Positions 2,213 to 13,225 of a stretch of 35,575 bases of DNA are shown in pieces. Each line of letters begins with the position of its first letter. The stretch's first letter is position 1. The notes under the pieces are model-generated. The model saw only the letters and a list, made by a program, of their open reading frames with translations, made no database searches and was not told the DNA's origin. Position numbers and translations under genes: made by a program. The stretch covers positions 1-35,575 of the forward strand of contig WLGJ01000003.1 in the NCBI GenBank assembly GCA_009703275.1. The letters are read 5' to 3'. Source of the DNA: Actinomycetota bacterium. GTDB taxonomy: Bacteria; Actinomycetota; Acidimicrobiia; Acidimicrobiales; Acidimicrobilacustridaceae.

Positions 2213-2242
2213 GGAACGCACGATTGGACGCGAAATGTGCAC
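2213..2242 (-). promoter_or_regulatory. Conserved 30-bp upstream motif, site A
   Basis: GTGCACATTTCGCGTCCAATCGTGCGTTCC on the minus strand, 6 nt upstream of the phosphatase start. Confidence 0.8.
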
Positions 2243-2251
2243 GGCGTGAAA

Positions 2252-3121
2252 TCAATTGCGCGGGGGGTTGAGTTCCCAGGGGGCCAGTGCAGTCATCAGT
2301 GCTCGAGAATGCTCAATGAGTTCGTCGAGTTGTTGAATCGCATCGCCATCAAGCACTCGATCAACCCACACCTGAAAGCCGGTGCCGGCAGTGAGCTCGA
2401 CGAGGAATCCCTCGGGTCGAGTCGGATGATTCACCCATTCGGTGACAACGTCACGCCAGCGGTCGCCATCAAGCTCAACCCCAGCGAGAACGCTGGCAAC
2501 GAGCGGACGTTCAGTGAGTGCAAATGCAGAACGTTCAGCGCTCGAGTCGCGACCGATGAACACATCGAACTCGGCGAGTTGGATCTGGAGCCGACCCTCG
2601 ACGTCGGAAAGTGGTTTCCCGCCGTACGTGTTGATCAGTTGATCGATAAGTGCAGCTTCGACACCAGTTCGCACCATGTTGGGGCGATGGATTGTCCGCC
2701 ACACAGGGCCGTTCTCGTCAAAGGAAAGTTCGATACCGAAGTCGGCAACGATTTCGTCCGTGAGCAGCATCGAACACCAGGTGTCGACCATGACGGTGAT
2801 GACTCGCTGAAGTTCAGAGGGTTCGGATGAGCCGGCGATCTTCGTGACCCATTCGGACACGTGCATGTCGGCCAACACTGCGTCAGTGAGATGGGCAACC
2901 GATACCCATTCACGATTAGGACCGGAGAGCGCATCGATCGTCCAGGTGATGCGAACGAAAGGGCCGTGCGGGTCTTGATCGCCGGTGCGGTCGATGATGC
3001 CGAAACCCCTATTGATAGAGGTCACATTGCTGGCATGGAGATTGGTGACAAAGAGCTTGGCGAATTCGCTGAGCTCCTCGAACGTGATCTGCCCCTCGAA
3101 GTAGGCCTGAATCTCATCCAT
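2252..3121 (-). CDS. Hypothetical protein
   Basis: Long ORF; start at MDEIQAYF after GGAAGGGGAAG ribosome-binding-like sequence; no family recognised. Confidence 0.7.
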   Translation of the reverse strand: MDEIQAYFEGQITFEELSEFAKLFVTNLHASNVTSINRGFGIIDRTGDQDPHGPFVRITWTIDALSGPNREWVSVAHLTDAVLADMHVSEWVTKIAGSSEPSELQRVITVMVDTWCSMLLTDEIVADFGIELSFDENGPVWRTIHRPNMVRTGVEAALIDQLINTYGGKPLSDVEGRLQIQLAEFDVFIGRDSSAERSAFALTERPLVASVLAGVELDGDRWRDVVTEWVNHPTRPEGFLVELTAGTGFQVWVDRVLDGDAIQQLDELIEHSRALMTALAPWELNPPRN

Positions 3122-3154
3122 GACTTCCCCTTCCGTGTTGTTCGCTTCACTAGG

Positions 3155-3184
3155 GAAACGCACGAATGGGGGAGTGGTGTGCGG
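3155..3184 (-). promoter_or_regulatory. Conserved 30-bp upstream motif, site B (divergent left half)
   Basis: CCGCACACCACTCCCCCATTCGTGCGTTTC on the minus strand; the right half is perfect. Confidence 0.65.
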
Positions 3185-3186
3185 TT

Positions 3187-3885
3187 TCAGCCAGAGAAGG
3201 AATTGACCGCTGCGTCGAGGTCTTCGATCGAAACACCCTCGAGGTCGCTGATGCTCTGTTTGAGGGCAGTCAGTTCGTCCTGAAGATCTCGAGCAAGTTG
3301 GGCCCCATAAGGCTGAACACCCGTAAGTCGTTCATTGAGGACCTTGACAAGTTGGCTTTGATACCAAATCTGCTGTGTGCGCTTGAACTCGATTGGGGCC
3401 TCGACCTTTTGGTCGAAGCGCAGCCAGAGCTGGCCCTTTTCTGACTTGTGGTCACTCACCATGGCCCGGACGTTGTGAAGCTTGTCTGCGGCAGAGATCA
3501 GAAGCACCGCACGGCGTTTCTTGTCGTAGGTCTTGATGTACTTCTGTTTTCTCGGATACCAAGCTTCCTTATTTTCGCTGTCTTCAACAAGGGAATCTGA
3601 GAGGTCTCTCACGTAGCCGGCGATCTTTGAGTCGAATTCCGCTTCGATCACGCTGAGCATGCGCTCGCCGCCATTGTCCTCAGCGACGTCATGAAGCAGC
3701 GCCGCAATGGCCTGGTCCTCGGTGCCGCCATATTGGAGCACGAGCGCGCTTACCCCGATCGAGTGGGAAAGATAGGGAACAGTTCCTCCACCCTTGCGGG
3801 CCTCGCCGTTCTGAAGAGTGCGAACCATCGTCAGCGCTTTGTCATAGCGCGAGGTCAAAATCGTTACTGAGGGTTGCTTTGCCAT
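3187..3885 (-). CDS. HD-domain phosphohydrolase, RelA/SpoT hydrolase-like (small alarmone hydrolase type)
   Basis: YLSHSIGVSALVLQYGGTEDQAIAALLHDVAEDNGG and ADKLHNVRAM motifs; start at MAKQPSVTIL. Confidence 0.75.
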   Translation of the reverse strand: MAKQPSVTILTSRYDKALTMVRTLQNGEARKGGGTVPYLSHSIGVSALVLQYGGTEDQAIAALLHDVAEDNGGERMLSVIEAEFDSKIAGYVRDLSDSLVEDSENKEAWYPRKQKYIKTYDKKRRAVLLISAADKLHNVRAMVSDHKSEKGQLWLRFDQKVEAPIEFKRTQQIWYQSQLVKVLNERLTGVQPYGAQLARDLQDELTALKQSISDLEGVSIEDLDAAVNSFSG

Positions 3886-3915
3886 GTTGTGCCTTCCGCC
3901 GTTGTCGGAATGACC

Positions 3916-3945
3916 GTACACATTTCTTGCGAGTTCGTGCGTTTC
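3916..3945 (+). promoter_or_regulatory. Conserved 30-bp upstream motif, site C
   Basis: GTACACATTTCTTGCGAGTTCGTGCGTTTC, 39 nt upstream of the ATG at 3985. Confidence 0.8.
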
Positions 3946-3984
3946 CTTCTTCTGGCCCTCGGGCCACGTACGAGAGGAGAACGC

Positions 3985-4461
3985 ATGGAGTTTGAAGACG
4001 AAAAGTGGATGGATTTCATGGACCCCGAAAATTTGGGTCGAACCGATGGCAAGAAGGCCTTTGTCGCAGTATGGCGTGACCACTTCTGGGGTCATGAAAT
4101 TGATGGCTTCACGTATGCACTGACGATGGAAGAAGCCATTGAGCAAGTGCGTGGTCATGAGGCCGAGGGACTCCCGATTCACTCGTTGCAACGGGAGGAC
4201 GAATTCATCGAAGGTTTGTCCGGCGGCTTCACCGTTCGGGCGGCGCGGATCCTCATTGAGGCAGACGATGTCCTGGTCGAGGAAACCATCCCGGCCCTGA
4301 CGGTGTCGATGGCCATCGATTTGGCTCGCGACATGTTCGAGCCCCACTGCAGGGTGATTGCCCTCCAGGAGGGTGGCGAATCGATGGTCTTGGTCGACCG
4401 AGAGATCTACCGAGACAGGGCGGACATCCCGTTGGGCTGGGAACAGGTGCTCAATCGGTAA
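3985..4461 (+). CDS. Hypothetical protein (158 aa)
   Basis: ORF starting MEFEDEKWMDF preceded by GAGAGGAGAA; no family recognised. Confidence 0.7.
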   Translation: MEFEDEKWMDFMDPENLGRTDGKKAFVAVWRDHFWGHEIDGFTYALTMEEAIEQVRGHEAEGLPIHSLQREDEFIEGLSGGFTVRAARILIEADDVLVEETIPALTVSMAIDLARDMFEPHCRVIALQEGGESMVLVDREIYRDRADIPLGWEQVLNR

Positions 4462-4466
4462 GGCCT

Positions 4467-4496
4467 GTGCACATTTTGGGACGTTTCGTGCGTTTC
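4467..4496 (+). promoter_or_regulatory. Conserved 30-bp upstream motif, site D
   Basis: GTGCACATTTTGGGACGTTTCGTGCGTTTC, 35 nt upstream of the ATG at 4532. Confidence 0.8.
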
Positions 4497-4531
4497 ACCA
4501 GTACGAACAACAGCGGCGGAAAGGCGGCTTT

Positions 4532-5422
4532 ATGAATTACCCAATCTTTTACAATGACTCCTACGTGGTCCCGGGGGGAGGACTCGAGACAGTGCGCAAG
4601 GCAGACGAGGTCGCCAGGCGCATCCTCGAACAGTTCCCCGACATCAAGTTGGTGAGCCCAGAGCCGGCAACTGTTGAGCAGCTACTGCTCGCACACACGG
4701 CGGAGTACATCGAGGCCTTCCTTTCGGGAGAGCCCTATTACGTTGCATCGGCCGCACTCGGCGAATGGTCCGAAGAGGTTGTGGCCTCCGTACTTGCATC
4801 GACTGGTGGTGTGATTGAGGCGGCACTCACTGCACTCGAGTCGGGCAAGTCCGGTTCGTTGTCTTCAGGCCTGCATCACGCAGCGAGCGATCACGGCGCC
4901 GGGTTCTGCACAATCAATGGTCTGGCGATTGCCGCACTCGTCGCATTGCAGAATGGCGCAAAGAGCGTCGGCATTCTCGATGTTGATGCACACTGCGGTG
5001 GCGGAACGTTCGACATTCTCGGGAACAATCCGTTGATTCGAATCGGTGACGTTTCAACCAACGGTTACGACGCATGGCGATCGGGCCAGGAGCGTCACAA
5101 GTTGGAGATCACGACAGATCCCGACACGTATCTGGACGTGGTTGCAGAAATGCTCGAGCACATCGGTTCCGTTGACCTGCTTCTGCTGAACGCAGGTATG
5201 GACCCGGCCGAAGGCGGCTCCGCTGGTTCGACTCGTGGATTCACGTCCGAACTACTCGAGCAGCGGGAACTGCTCGTGGCGGAATGGTGCGAGCGCACGA
5301 ACACACCGGTCGCGTTCGTGCTGGCTGGTGGCTACGTCGGGTCGAACCTGACTCTTGGCGGAGTAGCCGATCTGCACATGCACACCGTTGCCGCAATCGC
5401 CGGCGCAACCATCAATCGTTGA
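4532..5422 (+). CDS. Histone deacetylase/acetylpolyamine amidohydrolase-fold protein
   Basis: SSGLHHAASDHGAGFCTINGLAIAA, ILDVDAHCGGGT, LLNAGMDPAEGG, LAGGY motifs of the arginase/deacetylase fold. Confidence 0.85.
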   Translation: MNYPIFYNDSYVVPGGGLETVRKADEVARRILEQFPDIKLVSPEPATVEQLLLAHTAEYIEAFLSGEPYYVASAALGEWSEEVVASVLASTGGVIEAALTALESGKSGSLSSGLHHAASDHGAGFCTINGLAIAALVALQNGAKSVGILDVDAHCGGGTFDILGNNPLIRIGDVSTNGYDAWRSGQERHKLEITTDPDTYLDVVAEMLEHIGSVDLLLLNAGMDPAEGGSAGSTRGFTSELLEQRELLVAEWCERTNTPVAFVLAGGYVGSNLTLGGVADLHMHTVAAIAGATINR

Positions 5423-5434
5423 GTTGAGCGACTG

Positions 5435-5623
5435 ATGGGTCTGCTGACTGGTGCACTGTTCATTGGGTGGAGGCGCGCTCGAGGTCGTGAACGGCGACTC
5501 GAGCGTGCCTACGTCGCGCAGAACGAAGAACTTCAGGAGCTCATGGCTGCGGTGTTCTGCTGTCAATGCTGCGATTGGTGTGGGTGCTGCACACCGGAGG
5601 ACTGGTGCCCGGACTGCGCGTAG
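5435..5623 (+). CDS. Small cysteine-rich protein
   Basis: 62 aa ORF starting 12 nt after the deacetylase stop; C-terminus CCQCCDWCGCCTPEDWCPDCA. Confidence 0.55.
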   Translation: MGLLTGALFIGWRRARGRERRLERAYVAQNEELQELMAAVFCCQCCDWCGCCTPEDWCPDCA

Positions 5624-5695
5624 CGCGGCTTCGGAATTCTGAACAATTTTTGAGATTCGTCTCTGTTTTAAATCTTGCTCTCAGGTCTTTAAGAG

Positions 5696-5735
5696 GAATC
5701 GACCCGGCGCTCCCGCACGCCGGGTCGATTCGCGT
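5696..5735 (+). terminator. Rho-independent terminator-like hairpin
   Basis: GAATCGACCCGGCG-CTCCCGCA-CGCCGGGTCGATTC perfect 14-bp stem followed by GCGTTTTG. Confidence 0.75.
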
Positions 5736-5822
5736 TTTGCCGCCTTTGCGAATTCGAATTGACTAGCGTTGTCGCCACGCGCTGATGCGAACTCGCTTCA
5801 GCATGATGAACGGCGGAATTAA

Positions 5823-6230
5823 ATGAGCGACGCATCGCAAGGTCCAGGTTGGTGGCAGGCAACTGACGGCAAGTGGTATCCACCGGCACCACCTGCTTCG
5901 CCCGCGCCACCTGTGTATGGGGCGCCGCAGCAGGCGTACTACGCGCCTGCTGGTCCGAAGAACGATGGCATGTCAATTGCTGCACTTGTCTGCGGTATTT
6001 CGGGACTAGCCACACTCGTTCTTTGCGGAATCGGAATTGTCCCAGCAATTCTTGGCGTGATCTTTGGAGTTATCGGCAAGAAGAAGGTCGAAGAGTCCGG
6101 CGGTGCACTTCAAGGCCGAGGCATGGCTCTGGCTGGAGCAATCTGCGGCGCAGTCGCCATCGGACTCTTCCTGATCTGGATGGTGTTGGTGCTCATCGGA
6201 GCGTTTAACTCCGATTCAAGCTCGTACTGA
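5823..6230 (+). CDS. DUF4190-like membrane protein with N-terminal GWWQATDGKWYPP segment
   Basis: Pro-rich N-terminus, two hydrophobic helices, GVIGKKKVEESGGALQGRGMALAG motif. Confidence 0.8.
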   Translation: MSDASQGPGWWQATDGKWYPPAPPASPAPPVYGAPQQAYYAPAGPKNDGMSIAALVCGISGLATLVLCGIGIVPAILGVIFGVIGKKKVEESGGALQGRGMALAGAICGAVAIGLFLIWMVLVLIGAFNSDSSSY

Positions 6231-6251
6231 CAACGCACTTCTGCCGGGAAC

Positions 6252-6989
6252 TCAGTTCGCCGGCGGTAATTCTGGCGCGCTCGGCGCCGGGCCAAGCGAG
6301 TTCAGCTGTTCGGTGAGTTGATCAACGTCACTCTGACAATCGGCCTCGAGTGACTCGATGTCACCAGTCGCTCGCGCGACGGCAAGATCGATCCAGAACT
6401 CGAACAGCTCACGGTTCGCGCTATCGACACCAATACCGCTGATCTTCTGACGATTCGACACCGCCATCGCCGTCCAGCCTGGGTCGTAGTTGGTGACGCT
6501 CAGCAGTTTCGACCATGCCCATTCACGCGAATGTTTCTGCCCAGCGAAGATTGCGCGCGTGCTGGTGACGGTGAACGTTCCGGTGTCGATCGGCGTTGGC
6601 GTTTCCTCGCCCTGCTGAAACGATCCCTTCGACGCGCCAACGCGGTACCGCAAGCGTGTGCCAGGGATCGGCATGGAAATGCCCTGACTGCGACCTTTCC
6701 ACTGACCGGGACCTTTGCGTGGTTCAACCAACACCGCATCGGTCACATGGCAATAGATCGACTCGCCGGCTTTCACCACCACGTTGATGTCGTCGGGCTT
6801 GTCGGCACCGGTTACGCCGTGGAAGTTCTTCACCGCATCAAGTCGAGCCTCGGCAAACCCGAGTTCTTCGACGATGTCAGCGCGAATTGCTTCGCGCTCG
6901 GCGGCGAGCTTGGCCGCCCTCGCGGCTTCGGCTCTTGCTTCTCGCTCGGCCTTCGCCGCTGCCCGCTTTGCCTTGAACTTCTCGAACAC
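6252..6989 (-). CDS. Hypothetical protein with Ala/Arg/Glu-rich coiled-coil N-terminus
   Basis: 245 aa ORF, low-complexity charged N-terminus then a globular region. Confidence 0.7.
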   Translation of the reverse strand: MFEKFKAKRAAAKAEREARAEAARAAKLAAEREAIRADIVEELGFAEARLDAVKNFHGVTGADKPDDINVVVKAGESIYCHVTDAVLVEPRKGPGQWKGRSQGISMPIPGTRLRYRVGASKGSFQQGEETPTPIDTGTFTVTSTRAIFAGQKHSREWAWSKLLSVTNYDPGWTAMAVSNRQKISGIGVDSANRELFEFWIDLAVARATGDIESLEADCQSDVDQLTEQLNSLGPAPSAPELPPAN

Positions 6990-7107
6990 CGATGCCTCCG
7001 TCGATCCGCCTCTTTCGAATGTACTTCCGAAGCAGGTCAGCCGGTGATGGGCACGTCGGCATTTGGTCCTTGTGCCCCTTGTGGTCTGAGGAGGGCACCC
7101 GGTAATA

Positions 7108-7125
7108 TGTACAGGAACCTGTACA
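7108..7125. promoter_or_regulatory. Palindromic operator upstream of TA module 1
   Basis: TGTACAGG-AA-CCTGTACA, perfect 8-bp arms, 12-bp direct periodicity into TGTACAGGAG. Confidence 0.65.
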
Positions 7126-7136
7126 GGAGTTGGGCC

Positions 7137-7412
7137 ATGCCAGAAACGATTTCAAGCGCTCGAGAACAGCTCACCACCCACGTTGCTCGATTCCGAGCCG
7201 AGGGCATCGACGCCGAACCCGTCGTGTTCGGCGACCACCGCCAGGCCGAAGCCGTGCTGCTTCCCTATGCGACCTTCGAGCTGCTGCTCGATGTGGCCGA
7301 AGACATCGCCATTGCAGAACGAATCAGAGAACGACTTGCTGCCGACACCGGCAACCGGACGTCATTGGCCGAGGTCGCGAGCGAACTTGGCATCGATCTC
7401 GAATCTCTGTGA
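7137..7412 (+). CDS. Phd/YefM-like antitoxin (TA module 1)
   Basis: 91 aa; C-terminal RLAADTGNRTSLAEVASELGID resembles the second antitoxin; coupled to the next ORF. Confidence 0.65.
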   Translation: MPETISSAREQLTTHVARFRAEGIDAEPVVFGDHRQAEAVLLPYATFELLLDVAEDIAIAERIRERLAADTGNRTSLAEVASELGIDLESL

Positions 7413-7864
7413 GCACAAGAAAGTCGCGTTCCTACGCGAACGTCACATTCCTTGATGAGGCGGTGGAGGATCTTCGCCGAATCGCGAAGCGTTCCCCAGA
7501 AGTTGTAAGGGAAGTCTTTCGACTTCTCAAACAACTTGATGCTGGCGAACTCCTGCCGCGTCGGTTGCAGGATTACGCGAAGACCGGCGATCTCACCGAC
7601 TGCGGAAAGATCGTTGTAGAAGTCGAAGGTGAACCCGAACACCGAATTGTTGTGCGCGATGTCGGGAGAGGGAATTTCGAAGTGTGCGAAGTGATCACGG
7701 TTGAAGCGCGCACCGAAGACCTGGCCTATTTGCTGGCCGGAGTGCGTCTCGGTCGAATCAACGACCCTGTTCGTCGATCTGACATCAGTCGTCGAGTCAG
7801 TCGAATTCAGAAAGCCCTTGGCCGCAACGAACTCGATGGCACAGAACCACCACGACCGTTGTGA
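7409..7864 (+). CDS. RelE/ParE-like toxin with C-terminal extension (TA module 1)
   Basis: GTG start overlaps the antitoxin stop by 4 nt; DEAVEDLRRIAKRSPEVVREVFRLLKQL..RIVVRDVGRGNFEVCEVITV. Confidence 0.65.
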   Translation: MSTRKSRSYANVTFLDEAVEDLRRIAKRSPEVVREVFRLLKQLDAGELLPRRLQDYAKTGDLTDCGKIVVEVEGEPEHRIVVRDVGRGNFEVCEVITVEARTEDLAYLLAGVRLGRINDPVRRSDISRRVSRIQKALGRNELDGTEPPRPL

Positions 7865-7885
7865 AATCAGCCTGAAAACGAAAAC

Positions 7886-7915
7886 CGGGCCGCCCCCTCC
7901 GCCGGGGACGGCCCG
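7886..7915 (-). terminator. Terminator-like hairpin between convergent genes
   Basis: CGGGCCG.CCCC/GGGGACGGCCCG stem with one bulge; on the minus strand followed by GTTTTCGTTTTC. Confidence 0.7.
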
Positions 7916-7952
7916 TCTGGCTCCCGCCAGAGCCATCTCTCAACCTGATGGC

Positions 7953-8855
7953 TCAGGCTGCGAGAGCAAATGCGCTTGCGTGCACCACTGCACCGTCAAG
8001 CACCAGCGCCTGGCCGACCATCTTCGTGGTCTCCAAGTGCAGTTCTTCGCCGAGTCCGACACCAGGGGAGCTGGTGCCGCGAGCCGTGCCGATGCGAGTC
8101 ACGAAACGCAGCGCCCGTGACACCGAAGGACGACCTTCGATGCGTTCTGGTGCGTCAAGCAACGCTGCACGAATCAGCGCTTCCCAGTTCGCCGCAAGCA
8201 GCTCGGGCGTTGCGAAGATTTCTGCCGCAACGATGCGCCTACCGTGACCAAGCACGATGCCGCACTGACCCGGCAAAGGGCCGATGCCGGCCAGTTCCTG
8301 TGCAGCATTGGCCAACTGGTTGTCGGCTTCGAAGAGCAACTCCGACGCGTGAATCGCACGAGTAGAGGAGTCGACCTTCAAACGGTCGAGCTCGTAATCG
8401 ATGCTGTTCCACACCGCACCCTGATCGGAAGACTTCGTTCCGCCGCGTCGGACCGAATCACTCACGGTCATGTTCTTGACTCGGCGCACACGACGCGGTG
8501 CAAAGGTGCGACCACGCTCGAATGCTGAACGGCCGTTCCAACGACCGGCCTCGACACACGACACCGGAACGCTGATGGTTGCGCCACCAGGCACAAGCAC
8601 CGAAACGTTCAGCACTCGGTTCTGCTGACCACCGGTGACGGTTTCGCCTTCCACCAACAGCGCCGGACGCTGCCCGGAGTTGGTGACAGTGATTGTCGGG
8701 ACTTCGGCCGAACCTTGTTCGGTGATCTGGACGTCGGACGGTCGAGCACCAATGTCGATGCCGCCGCCGCCGTGGATATAAATGGGGAAGAGTGACACTC
8801 CACCCCGTGTAATCGGGCGTCCCACCGACGCCCGTTCCAACTGTTCGATCGCCAT
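7953..8855 (-). CDS. ARPP-1-like protein (ADP-ribosylglycohydrolase/rhodanese-phosphatase associated family)
   Basis: Recognised pattern: GARPSDVQITEQGSAEVPTITVTNSGQRPALLVEGETVTGGQQNRVLNVSVLVPG...IPVSCVEAGRW-type core (here SVPVSCVEAGRW). Confidence 0.7.
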   Translation of the reverse strand: MAIEQLERASVGRPITRGGVSLFPIYIHGGGGIDIGARPSDVQITEQGSAEVPTITVTNSGQRPALLVEGETVTGGQQNRVLNVSVLVPGGATISVPVSCVEAGRWNGRSAFERGRTFAPRRVRRVKNMTVSDSVRRGGTKSSDQGAVWNSIDYELDRLKVDSSTRAIHASELLFEADNQLANAAQELAGIGPLPGQCGIVLGHGRRIVAAEIFATPELLAANWEALIRAALLDAPERIEGRPSVSRALRFVTRIGTARGTSSPGVGLGEELHLETTKMVGQALVLDGAVVHASAFALAA

Positions 8856-8884
8856 GGTGGCAACCTCCTCGCCTTGTTAGATGT

Positions 8885-8914
8885 GAAACGCACGATCGCC
8901 GGCGAAATGTGCAC
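8885..8914 (-). promoter_or_regulatory. Conserved 30-bp upstream motif, site E
   Basis: GTGCACATTTCGCCGGCGATCGTGCGTTTC on the minus strand, 29 nt upstream of the ARPP-1-like start. Confidence 0.8.
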
Positions 8915-8957
8915 AGCGATGAAATCTTCAAGGTGGGCTTATGGTCTGAGCGACCCA

Positions 8958-8981
8958 TAGAAATCTGTGTAGAAATCTGTA
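8958..8981. promoter_or_regulatory. Tandem 12-bp operator-like repeats upstream of TA module 2
   Basis: TAGAAATCTGTG TAGAAATCTGTA, followed by TAG. Confidence 0.6.
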
Positions 8982-8991
8982 TAGTGGTCGA

Positions 8992-9333
8992 ATGGCCCCT
9001 CAAGTGAAGTCCAATGCGACGTCGGCTGAATCAGTGACCGTCACCGAGGCCTCGCGTCTTGGCGTCTCCGACCTCGTGCGCCGGGCCAGTCAGGGGCACG
9101 ACATCGTGGTCGAAAAGCACGGCACCCCCGTGGCTGCGGTGATCGGCCTCGCCCGGTTCGAACAACTCGAGGACCTCGAAGCTGACCTTCGCAGTGCGGC
9201 CCTAGTTCTTTCCCGCTTGGCCACCGATAACGGCGTCCGCATCGGACTCGACGAGGTCATCGATTCGCTCGGTTTCAACCGGGCCGAACTGGAAGCAGAA
9301 CTCGACGCGGATCTCCGCGCCGAGCGCACCTGA
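8992..9333 (+). CDS. Phd/YefM-family antitoxin (TA module 2)
   Basis: VTVTEASRLGVSDLVRRASQGHDIVVEKHGTPVAAVIGLARFEQLE. Confidence 0.8.
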   Translation: MAPQVKSNATSAESVTVTEASRLGVSDLVRRASQGHDIVVEKHGTPVAAVIGLARFEQLEDLEADLRSAALVLSRLATDNGVRIGLDEVIDSLGFNRAELEAELDADLRAERT

Positions 9334-9349
9334 ACGTCCTCGTTCGTCG

Positions 9350-9928
9350 ATGACGCAACCTCGAGCCCAAGTTCGGCTGATTGAAGCAGCTGCGCACGAT
9401 CTGACGATGCTTGTTCGGTCGGACCCGCAGATCGTTCGCCAGGTCCTGAAGCGGTTGCTCTACATCGAACGTGAACCAACTGTTGGCGACCCGCTTCTCG
9501 GAGATCTCATCGGATATCGCAAGCTGACTGTGGGTGATCGTCATTGGCGGATCATCTGGCGCGTGGTCACGCAGCCGAATGGTGATCTTGTTGTTGAGAT
9601 CGCTGAAGTATGGGGAGTAGGAGCACGTGCTGAATCAGCGATCTACGCAGAGATGACGCGTCGCGTGGCAACGCTTCCCAAAAATCCTCAGACGATCGCG
9701 CTTGGTGATGTCATCGAATCGCTCGGGCGGACCGCAATGGGTCTCCGGGTGGAGGAGCAACAACGTCGAGAACCACTGCCGGAGTGGCTGCTCTCTCGCC
9801 TTGTTTATACAGCCGGATTTGCACGTCGAGAGGTTGAATCACTTGATGCAGAAGCGGCGATGGAATTGTGGGAGCGCTACATCACAAGCGACAACATCAG
9901 GGACGACGCTGGAGGATCGCCTACCTAA
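9350..9928 (+). CDS. RelE/ParE-like toxin with about 90-aa C-terminal extension (TA module 2)
   Basis: VRLIEAAAHDLTMLVRSDPQIVRQVLKRLLYIEREPTVGDPLLGDLIGYRKLTVGDRHWRIIWRV; follows the antitoxin. Confidence 0.75.
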   Translation: MTQPRAQVRLIEAAAHDLTMLVRSDPQIVRQVLKRLLYIEREPTVGDPLLGDLIGYRKLTVGDRHWRIIWRVVTQPNGDLVVEIAEVWGVGARAESAIYAEMTRRVATLPKNPQTIALGDVIESLGRTAMGLRVEEQQRREPLPEWLLSRLVYTAGFARREVESLDAEAAMELWERYITSDNIRDDAGGSPT

Positions 9929-10510
9929 TTACGCCGCGATCACGTACTCGCGGATGAAATTGCGAGCCTTGCCGAGTTCTCGCTGGCAATAGGCGCGGTT
10001 CTTGTCGAGATCGCGTGCGGCCTCGACAACGGTGTAGCCCTCGACGTCGACACGCCACACCAATGTGCGCTGCAATGCAGACAGCATCGAGAGTGCGTCG
10101 CGCACGTCGACCTGTGCCGCAACTGCGTCGGCAAAGTCGTGACCGTTCGTGGTGACGTCGCCGATGCGATCAGTGAGCTCGTCGAGCGAACCCATCTGAC
10201 GCCGAGCAACGCGCTGACCGTCGCGCTCCACCAAGTGTGCGCCCTGGCCACGCTGGATGCGCTCAGTGCGGCGCCAGTCTTCGGCGCGGTTGCGCAGTGA
10301 AACGGCGGCGAACACCTCGGGGGAGTAGGAGGACATCCAACGCTGTGGATCGGACCAGAACTGGAGGAAGACCAACATGGCCATGTCGTGCGCGCCGTTG
10401 TCGGTGCCGCGCTCGAACCGGCCGCGGGCCAAGCCCTGGGCAGTGCTGTAGACCCGAGCCCCGAAGGCTTGAGGGTCGTTGTTGGGGGAAGAGTTGAACT
10501 GATGTGCCAA
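9929..10510 (-). CDS. Sigma-70/ECF-like protein
   Basis: Region 2-like segment (ARGRFERGTDNGAHDMAMLVFLQFW...SLRNRAEDWRRTER) and region 4-like helix-turn-helix (LSALQRTLVWRVDVEGYTVVEAARDLDKNRAYCQRELGKARNFIRE); TTG start after GGAG. Confidence 0.6.
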   Translation of the reverse strand: MAHQFNSSPNNDPQAFGARVYSTAQGLARGRFERGTDNGAHDMAMLVFLQFWSDPQRWMSSYSPEVFAAVSLRNRAEDWRRTERIQRGQGAHLVERDGQRVARRQMGSLDELTDRIGDVTTNGHDFADAVAAQVDVRDALSMLSALQRTLVWRVDVEGYTVVEAARDLDKNRAYCQRELGKARNFIREYVIAA

Positions 10511-10617
10511 GTAGGGCTCCTATTCTCCGGCCAGCGCCCGCCGCCGGGTTTTGTGGGAAGAGCTCTGATTCTTCAGAGCGCCTGTGACAGTCCAGGACCG
10601 ATTTCCGCCGGATACCT

Positions 10618-10676
10618 ATATGCTGTCGACAACTGCATATTGTCATAGATGTGAATATATGTCAAGCAACAGCATA
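10618..10676. promoter_or_regulatory. AT-rich inverted-repeat region upstream of the NrtR-like gene
   Basis: ATATGC-N11-GCATAT (10618-10640); TATGCTGT (10619-10626) with ACAGCATA (10669-10676). Confidence 0.5.
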
Positions 10677-10686
10677 AAGTAAGCCT

Positions 10687-11571
10687 GTGACACCGACTTC
10701 GTACGACCCCTCTCAATTCCCACGTTTCGCAGTAACAGTCGACATTGCGGTGTTCACGCTCATGGATCTGCCCGTTCCGCCGAAGTCGGGCCAGGCCCCC
10801 CGGAAGGAACTCGCTGCCGTCCTCATTGTTAGAGGCGGCGACACTGAGGCCGGCCGATATGCACTGCCCGGAGGCTTCGTCCACATCGACGAAGACCTTT
10901 CGGCAGCTGCCCTTCGAGAGTTGCATGAAGAAGCGGGGCTTGAGTTGCCGACCTCGGCCATTCATCAGTTCCGGGCCTATGGCGACCCCGATCGAGACCC
11001 TCGAATGCGAGTCGTGACCGTTGCCCACACGGCCCTCACATCGATTGATGTTGCGCTCGAAGCTGGAACCGATGCGAAAGAAGTTGAGATCGTACCGGTG
11101 CGGAGAATTCTCGACGGTGAGATTTCACTTGCGTTCGATCACGATCAGATTTTGCGAGATGCACTCGAGTTCGTTCAGGTGTTGGTGGAAGAGACCTCTG
11201 CAATTCTCGAGTTGTGCCCGGAATCGTTCACACTCACCGAGCTTCGTCATGCGTGCGAAGCGGTCTGGGGTTATGAAGTTGATCGCGCGACCTTTAACAA
11301 GCGAGTGCTGCACATCGAAGGGTTTCTGGAAGCTGACGACGATGAGTCGTATCGGTCGTCACCGCCTGGCGACTATTTGTTAATGAGCATGGATTCGCCA
11401 TTAATGGAGACGCCCTCGAAGCCGAGCACACGGGGTCGTCCGGCGAAGCAATACCGCCGTGGATGGGCCGAAACGCTGCATCCGCCGTTATTGCGACCGC
11501 GTGATCGATTAAAGCAAACCGACTCTTGGTACGAGAACGTCTCGTTAAAGTCATTAATGACTGACGAGTAA
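10687..11571 (+). CDS. NrtR-like Nudix-winged-helix regulator
   Basis: Intact Nudix box GGFVHIDEDLSAAALRELHEEAGLEL plus C-terminal FTLTELRHACEAVWGYEVDRATFNKRV winged-helix region. Confidence 0.85.
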   Translation: MTPTSYDPSQFPRFAVTVDIAVFTLMDLPVPPKSGQAPRKELAAVLIVRGGDTEAGRYALPGGFVHIDEDLSAAALRELHEEAGLELPTSAIHQFRAYGDPDRDPRMRVVTVAHTALTSIDVALEAGTDAKEVEIVPVRRILDGEISLAFDHDQILRDALEFVQVLVEETSAILELCPESFTLTELRHACEAVWGYEVDRATFNKRVLHIEGFLEADDDESYRSSPPGDYLLMSMDSPLMETPSKPSTRGRPAKQYRRGWAETLHPPLLRPRDRLKQTDSWYENVSLKSLMTDE

Positions 11572-11606
11572 TCGCGGCGCACTCAATAATGACCGGCGAT
11601 TAATGC

Positions 11607-11635
11607 ATCGTTAATCGTTAATCGTTAATCGTTAA
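11607..11635. repeat. 7-bp tandem repeat (ATCGTTA x4)
   Basis: atcgttaatcgttaatcgttaatcgttaa between convergent nrtR-like and ARG genes. Confidence 0.9.
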
Positions 11636-11643
11636 CGGGTCGA

Positions 11644-13110
11644 TTACCACTCGGCTTCGAGTAGCTCGATGAACGACTTCTGGTAGTCCTGATACTGATC
11701 CCAACGTTCGGACAGCCACACATGGGCCTCGCGCTCAGTGAAGCCGTTCGTGCGCATTGCCCAAGCCTTCAACACCAGGCCTGTTCGACTGTGGCCGCCG
11801 TGACAATGCACGACGACGGTGCGACCTTCGGCCAACAACGCGTCGATGGCATCGACAGCGTCGCGCACCGCCGTTACCGGGTCAGCATTTGCCGGCCCGG
11901 ACTGATCGATAAGGAACACTTCGCGCCGCGCAGCGTGGCCGTCGAATGCACCAAATGTTCGACACAGTGACACCACGCCCCACGACACAGGCGCGTCCTG
12001 CGCGCCGAACAAATTCGCGGCGTGCACGCCGGGGGCAACTTCGGTGGGGCCCGCCGACGGCTCGGCTGCTGTGGCCGCAACTGGTCCACGCCCTACTAAG
12101 GCACGGGCCAAATCCTGCAGACCCGCATTGTCGAATCGCACCACACCTTCGGGCGTTTCCAACTCGCCATTGATATAGGTCAACCAACGAGACGGAATGG
12201 CCTGCACGCTGTCTCGCGCGCCAGCAATTGCGCCGGCCACGGTAGCGACCGTGTCGGTGTCGCCGCCTAACTCAATTGCCGCAACCAACACATCTTCGAA
12301 TCGATCGTTATGGCGCACCGCCCAGACCGCCTGGGCCAAACATGTCCACACCGAACCGTTTGAAAGATCATCGGCATTGTTTGGTTCCCATGACACATCG
12401 AGCATTGCCGCGAAACGCTCGCGCTCGTCGGGTTCAACGCGCGCCAACACTTCTGGCAACGCTGCGATGGGGTCTTCCCCCAGCACCGCTCGGCGAATGA
12501 GCGCCGCAGCAATTGCTGCGCCCCAGCCTGCAGCCGCATCGAAGTGCGTGAGTGCTGCTTGCGCTCGAGCAACCGTCATGAGCGTGGCTTCATCGACGCC
12601 ACTCCATGCCAACGCGATTGGCGTAATGCGCATAAGTGCACCGTTTGCTGCACTGCGATTAAGCGCAACGTGTCCGTCATACGCGGCGCCGGGCCAGTCG
12701 CGTCGTGACAACACACGGCCAGTGAGAATCCCGCAGTCCTTCGCTTTACGACGCCAGGCCACGAATCGTGCCCACACATCGTCGGCATCGAATCCGCCAC
12801 TGGCAAGAACCGATTGCGCAAGCGCGAGCGCCATTTGCGTGTCGTCGGTGAATTCGCCAACGCGCCAATTGAATGTTCCGCCGCCGCACATTTCGCCAGT
12901 GCCGCCAAGAACCGGTTCGGGGAAACGTGCTCGATAGGAACCGGCCGGAAGGAACTCGAACGGTGCACCGAGTGCATCGCCAACCGCGGAACCGCACAAT
13001 GCGCCGATCACTCGTTGCACGGTGATCGCATCAAAGCTGGGCGGTTCGGGAAGAGCGATGAAGGCGGGAAGGCCTTCGGCAATGGTGCTGGGTCGTTCGG
13101 GTTCGTTCAT
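11644..13110 (-). CDS. ADP-ribosylglycohydrolase fused to a C-terminal dual-specificity phosphatase
   Basis: GALCGSAVGDALGAPFEF, FTDDTQMALALA, IELGGDTDTVATVAGAIAGA (ARH family); VVHCHGGHSRTGLVLKAW phosphatase signature. Confidence 0.9.
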   Translation of the reverse strand: MNEPERPSTIAEGLPAFIALPEPPSFDAITVQRVIGALCGSAVGDALGAPFEFLPAGSYRARFPEPVLGGTGEMCGGGTFNWRVGEFTDDTQMALALAQSVLASGGFDADDVWARFVAWRRKAKDCGILTGRVLSRRDWPGAAYDGHVALNRSAANGALMRITPIALAWSGVDEATLMTVARAQAALTHFDAAAGWGAAIAAALIRRAVLGEDPIAALPEVLARVEPDERERFAAMLDVSWEPNNADDLSNGSVWTCLAQAVWAVRHNDRFEDVLVAAIELGGDTDTVATVAGAIAGARDSVQAIPSRWLTYINGELETPEGVVRFDNAGLQDLARALVGRGPVAATAAEPSAGPTEVAPGVHAANLFGAQDAPVSWGVVSLCRTFGAFDGHAARREVFLIDQSGPANADPVTAVRDAVDAIDALLAEGRTVVVHCHGGHSRTGLVLKAWAMRTNGFTEREAHVWLSERWDQYQDYQKSFIELLEAEW

Positions 13111-13195
13111 GGGCGACTCCTCAGTCGGGGGATAGGGCGGCTGATCAACGAACTCGTGGCGGGTTCGCAACAAGCTCGGATCAGCCGATGAGGAA

Positions 13196-13225
13196 GAAAC
13201 GCACGATGCGCGCGCAAATGTGCGC
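13196..13225 (-). promoter_or_regulatory. Conserved 30-bp upstream motif, site F
   Basis: GCGCACATTTGCGCGCGCATCGTGCGTTTC on the minus strand upstream of the ARG-phosphatase gene. Confidence 0.75.

Follow-up and report, generated by a model that had tools for sequence, protein, structure and literature searches.

A 30-bp motif stands upstream of six genes in the window (the whole 35,575-nucleotide stretch of DNA analysed here), is rare in the host genome, faces the genes it precedes, and is conserved at orthologous genes in relatives. It is likely to be a promoter, read by the ECF-type sigma factor of 9929-10510 and driving a dispersed regulon of predicted ADP-ribose-processing genes. On this reading a likely reader and a signal path can be named for a predicted antiviral system, and genes scattered over the genome are probably switchable together via their common promoter.

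The six sites and their genes

All six 30-mers (A-F) listed in the preliminary description are present letter for letter in the window at the coordinates of Table 1, and each faces the next ORF, on either strand, as had been claimed. The distance from motif end to ATG is 6 nt for A, 33 for B, 39 for C, 35 for D, 29 for E and 85 for F. Two window sites (D and E) match the full consensus exactly, against none expected from shuffles; a position weight matrix built from the six sites scores them at 33-42, the next-best position in the window reaching 12.8. The boxes of greatest weight, a refinement of those first described, are CACA (motif positions 4-7) and GCGTT (24-28). An Rfam search of the window gave no match, and a reading as an RNA element was dropped.

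The genes downstream had been named from the translations as a phosphatase, two unknown proteins, a deacetylase-fold protein, an ARPP-1-like protein and a fusion of ADP-ribosylglycohydrolase (ARG) and phosphatase; by Pfam, A, D, E and F have the matches of Table 1, and B and C have none. A search with the PADLOC defence models returned a weak NYN match only. By inspection, the cluster includes two small toxin-antitoxin-like pairs of genes (7139-7864 and 8992-9928), of which the second adjoins the sigma gene and recurs in several relatives; short tandem TTAATCG repeats occupy 11591-11640, between the NrtR-like and ARG-DSP genes.

Table 1. Motif sites and genes of the cluster, in window coordinates.
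Feature	Position	Strand	Remarks
Site A	2213-2242	-	putative promoter of DSP-type phosphatase gene, predicted leaderless; exact match
Site B	3155-3184	-	first box degenerate
Site C	3916-3945	+	
Site D	4467-4496	+	full consensus
Site E	8885-8914	-	full consensus
Site F	13196-13225	-	
Gene A, DSP/tyrosine phosphatase-fold, 202 aa	1598-2206	-	PF00782 E=4e-8
Gene B, 289 aa	2252-3121	-	no Pfam match
HD-domain (SpoT-like) gene, adjoins B and C, without own motif	3187-3885	-	PF13328 E=8e-15
Gene C, 158 aa	3985-4461	+	no Pfam match
Gene D, histone-deacetylase-fold protein	4532-5422	+	PF00850 E=5e-28
Gene E, ARPP-1	7953-8855	-	PF20208 E=8e-70
Divergent ECF sigma factor, proposed motif reader	9929-10510	-	TTG start behind AGGAG; TIGR02937; PDB profile; AlphaFold model
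NrtR-like Nudix + winged-helix regulator, divergent from sigma	10687-11571	+	PF00293, PF21906; TransRepNtr below cutoff
Gene F, ADP-ribosylglycohydrolase fused to DSP phosphatase	11644-13110	-	PF03747 E=6e-62, PF00782 E=3e-9

Rarity in the host genome

In the host MAG (1.89 Mb in 228 contigs, 78% complete), the consensus at three or fewer mismatches has eight matches and its reversed-pattern control none; the core CACA-N15-TGCGTT has nine, eight of which are the regulon sites, and its control three. Chance occurrence of the motif is ruled out by the shuffle, reversed-pattern and core controls. The two regulon sites beyond A-F are both on contig C65, one before a vWA gene and the other before an NYN gene. 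The sites did not prove to be scattered over unrelated or intragenic positions of the host MAG. The ninth core match (L206, C185:24061-24085) is followed by an ATG that has a good ribosome-binding site but opens no long ORF. A weaker site, with a core that departs from the pattern (CACC), precedes sbcD, which may be a regulon member but may also be unrelated.

Conservation in relatives

Among 120 genomes scanned, the strict pattern was found in 10 of the 20 genus mates (the match in G006 being chance-like) and outside the genus only as two lone, chance-like matches with three mismatches, in G050 and G089; other genera carry the motif only in diverged form. Orthologous sites in the genus mates precede the genes for ARPP-1, ARG-DSP, DSP, the deacetylase-fold protein, NYN, vWA and SbcD. 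Site E is kept in six genus mates, site D has an identical copy in G018, and the orthologues of site B in G010 and G018 have CACA-N17-CGTT at the same place. Site F is kept in G005, G009 and G010 and diverged in G003 and G004, the ARG-DSP site of G004 having been seen by scanning that locus. A profile built from 23 sites located diverged sites before ARG-DSP, vWA and TY-Chap3 (PF22552) genes and the C-D pair in G003, G008, G011, G012 and G013; in G012, the gene C orthologue precedes D, with one site ahead of both.

The part that persists is CACA-N17-CGTT, present in 40 of 45 regulon upstream regions from the genus and sister genera, with drift in flanks and spacer. Other spacings of the two words in these regions are sporadic only, at 8-9 bp, and a control word pair is almost absent. 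CGTT occupies motif positions 25-28 in 41 to 43 of the 45 sites, and information content is concentrated at positions 3-7 and 22-28. A set of 20 further upstream regions gave CACA-N17-CGTT within 150 bp in 15, against 0.046 expected; six of the 20 had been found by motif and the other 14 chosen by gene (10 of these fit), and the cases from G027 are not fully independent, because the pattern was refined while that genome was being looked at.

Within G027, the exact string GCGCACA-N17-CGTTCATC has two genome-wide matches, before DSP and vWA genes near two sigma genes. In the same genome an element that differs from the regulon motif, GTCACATCTC, precedes each of the two sigma genes as well as one DSP gene (L091, L092), and is perhaps a second promoter class; a guessed common string there, GGAAAGTCGCG, led nowhere. 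SAM-IV riboswitches of G027 (L091 906-1011(-) and 3208-3315(-); L092 4278-4382(-)) stand ahead of two TY-Chap3-like genes and of a gene next to them, near the two ECF sigma genes.

The scarcity of the sites, their place ahead of the genes that they face, and their retention at orthologues lend good support to the regulon postulated in the preliminary description, which gains NYN, vWA, in relatives TY-Chap3, and possibly sbcD.

A candidate sigma factor

The proposed reader, a protein of 193 aa, matches TIGR02937 just below its cutoff, and a PDB profile search with it finds SigE/SigL; Pfam sigma region 2 is weak in the window protein and reaches E=0.0025 in the relative from L054. An AlphaFold model made from an alignment of 13 relatives (pLDDT 74) has two helical domains, at 13-86 and about 126-192. 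ECF sigma factors make up all ten of its top PDB matches (178-190 columns, probability 1.0), and its sigma-4 domain aligns to M. tuberculosis 3hug with a target TM of 0.86; the low global TM (about 0.3) reflects the free arrangement of the two domains. No co-transcribed anti-sigma gene lies beside the window sigma gene, which is flanked by a toxin-like gene that converges on it and by the divergent NrtR-like gene; not every ECF sigma factor has such a partner. In the window no motif precedes the sigma gene itself. In G003, G004 and G023, the sigma gene comes after an ARG gene that has the motif ahead of it and shares its strand, an order resembling that of an autoregulated ECF operon.

Relatives of this sigma factor were found in the genus and, outside it, in G023, G027, G034 and G035. 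They adjoin ARG-DSP, ARPP-1, NrtR, DSP, HD or TY-Chap3 genes in the genus, G023, G027 and G035; in G034 the sigma is present, and neither partner genes nor motif were recognised. An order-wide search found clear members in the window's family and one in another family (G137, with no system gene recognised), the weaker matches being mainly to region 4 of other sigma factors. Within the genus, ARPP-1 or ARG-DSP is found in 13 of 14 sigma-bearing genomes versus none of seven sigma-less ones (Fisher 7e-5, a test that ignores relatedness; G018 is included solely through a weak ARPP-1 match). The MAGs with close relatives bear the labels uncultured Candidatus Microthrix, Acidimicrobiales and Acidimicrobiia, which makes a host within the Acidimicrobiia most likely, and the isolate names suggest a lake; a sequence titled Bifidobacterium breve (L125, CAMAYJ010000040.1) has a 92% identical sigma together with the cluster, and its label looks wrong. 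A similar gene follows the sigma gene in G004 and G035 (L053 1842-2585; L090 262-1077), and is a candidate for a sigma-associated regulator.

Some findings count against the main reading: the -35 box is unusual, no motif stands before the window sigma gene, G034 combines the sigma with no recognised partner gene or motif, and the sigma genes of G027 share a different element with one DSP gene. The chief objection to the sigma link is that motif sites occur in G001, G008, G011 and G019, in which no cluster sigma was found; all four are MAGs, from which accessory islands may have dropped out. The same four genomes lend themselves to another reading, in which the motif is the promoter of a different sigma factor, e.g., an ECF common to the whole genus, and the cluster ECF does something else: one other ECF (the L156-L161 group) was present in six of six genomes checked. 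This seems unlikely, however, as that ECF also turns up where most of the regulon is absent and is unlinked to it, whereas the cluster sigma is linked to regulon genes in several genera, and the sequence of the sites shifts where the cluster sigma shifts (CGTTTC, CGTTCA, CGTCCA, CGATTG).

Promoter-like architecture

The position of the motif relative to start codons bears on the kind of element it is. Before the DSP gene it ends exactly 6 nt from the ATG in G000, G007, G015, G018 and G014, with differences in spacer and upstream flank, and in G027 it ends 6 nt (vWAa) and 7 nt before the ATG of the two vWA genes. With 6 nt between motif and ATG, gene A has no space for a core promoter of its own, and the motif itself is therefore the probable promoter. 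With the A of this ATG as the start, CGTT would occupy -12 to -9 and CACA -33 to -30, which is ECF geometry. The usual ECF -35 box has AAC, in place of which the motif has CACA. The other box fits: the ECF -10 box is typically CGT, and CGTT for EcfG (PMC8103513), and the motif contains CGT(T). The motif is best read as a putative ECF-type promoter with -35 (CACA) and -10 (CGTT) boxes 17 bp apart, not as a pair of activator half-sites.

A one-component activator aiding the housekeeping sigma, and bound to head-to-tail half-sites GTGCNNNTTT two helical turns apart, would account for the likeness of the two boxes in the window sites, 21 bp apart. It is nevertheless improbable: among the sites compared no TANNNT box recurs downstream of the motif, where gene A has too little space for one, and diverged sites (G014, G027) keep CACA and CGTT but not the resemblance between the boxes. 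The first suggestion had been “a promoter or activator site”; its promoter half stands, and the activator half is disfavoured by the spacing at gene A. That no named motif matches was also stated, which is correct for the full sequence but not for the architecture, the CGTT -10 box being known from ECF promoters.

The NrtR-like regulator and a possible mechanism

The NrtR-like gene is divergent from the sigma gene in nine genus genomes. NrtR sites are palindromes, and the motif is no dyad. That the motif is the operator of this repressor, a reading prompted by its place in the cluster and by the Nudix regulators proposed for ARG-centred systems (PMC9503650), is very improbable and was rejected, since the motif and the sigma persist without an NrtR match in four genomes (G004, G010, G014, G015), so that NrtR is not the motif's reader, and the sigma-NrtR intergenic region of the window lacks the motif. 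The two arms of an inverted repeat, CTTTATGC/GCATAAAG, stand about 45 bp from each other in this intergenic region (10511-10686); the repeat is kept in most of seven genomes and is a possible operator.

Assuming that the cluster sigma does read the motif as a promoter, the -35 box would be G[TC]GCACA and the -10 box GCGTT, around the core CACA-N17-CGTT, and polymerase with this sigma would start about 7 nt downstream of the 30-bp motif, which for gene A would be at the ATG itself. The dispersed genes so transcribed would be those for ARG-DSP, ARPP-1, DSP, the deacetylase-fold protein, the two unknown proteins, NYN and vWA. Gene arrangement and NrtR biology suggest that the divergently encoded NrtR-like repressor, presumably ADP-ribose-sensing, could put the sigma gene under ADP-ribose control: when ADP-ribose rises, repression of that gene may be lifted, whereupon the regulon would fire. 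A fuller version can be offered only tentatively, and is rather doubtful as a whole: a two-tier ADP-ribose alarm, in which the Nudix repressor senses ADP-ribose and governs a dedicated ECF sigma factor that has no anti-sigma; this sigma factor in turn would switch on a dispersed regulon whose products undo the ADP-ribosylation brought about by phage enzymes.

Comparison with known systems

ARG-centred systems have been predicted to reverse viral ADP-ribosylation of host macromolecules (Iyer et al., Viruses 2022, PMC9503650, section 3.8), and are defined in part by having no coupled ADP-ribosyltransferase or sirtuin (PMC9503650); neither was seen among the proteins scanned here. The gene set of the window matches them, antiviral function being a prediction of that literature: an ARG domain is coupled to a phosphatase of the rhodanese-phosphatase superfamily (the DSP of the fusion), and the accompanying Nudix/WYL regulator, ARPP, HD phosphatase and chaperone-type components have counterparts in the NrtR-like, ARPP-1 and HD genes, the vWA gene on C65, and TY-Chap3 in relatives. 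Unlike the systems of PMC9503650, where a sigma factor is not mentioned, those described here are separate transcription units with a putative common promoter and an ECF sigma. No paper joining ARG-centred systems with a sigma factor was found in the open-licence literature, and the common promoter and sigma link of ARG-centred genes appear to be undescribed so far. What had been an association by gene neighbourhood becomes a regulon, as the motif scan finds members far from the ARG gene (NYN, vWA, TY-Chap3, the unknown families B and C). Dedication of a sigma factor to ADP-ribose reversal, if true, would be a new assignment.

With the NrtR regulons of NAD metabolism, the cluster shares a Nudix + winged-helix regulator beside ADP-ribose-related genes, but its motif is non-palindromic and does not depend on the presence of an NrtR match. 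The closer likeness in architecture is to ECF regulons of the EcfG, SigE and SigR types: a protein with sigma-2 and sigma-4 domains, a CGTT -10 box, and a short two-box putative promoter with 17 bp between the cores. It differs from these in a -35 box of CACA rather than AAC, and in having a divergent NrtR-like gene in the place of an adjacent anti-sigma gene.
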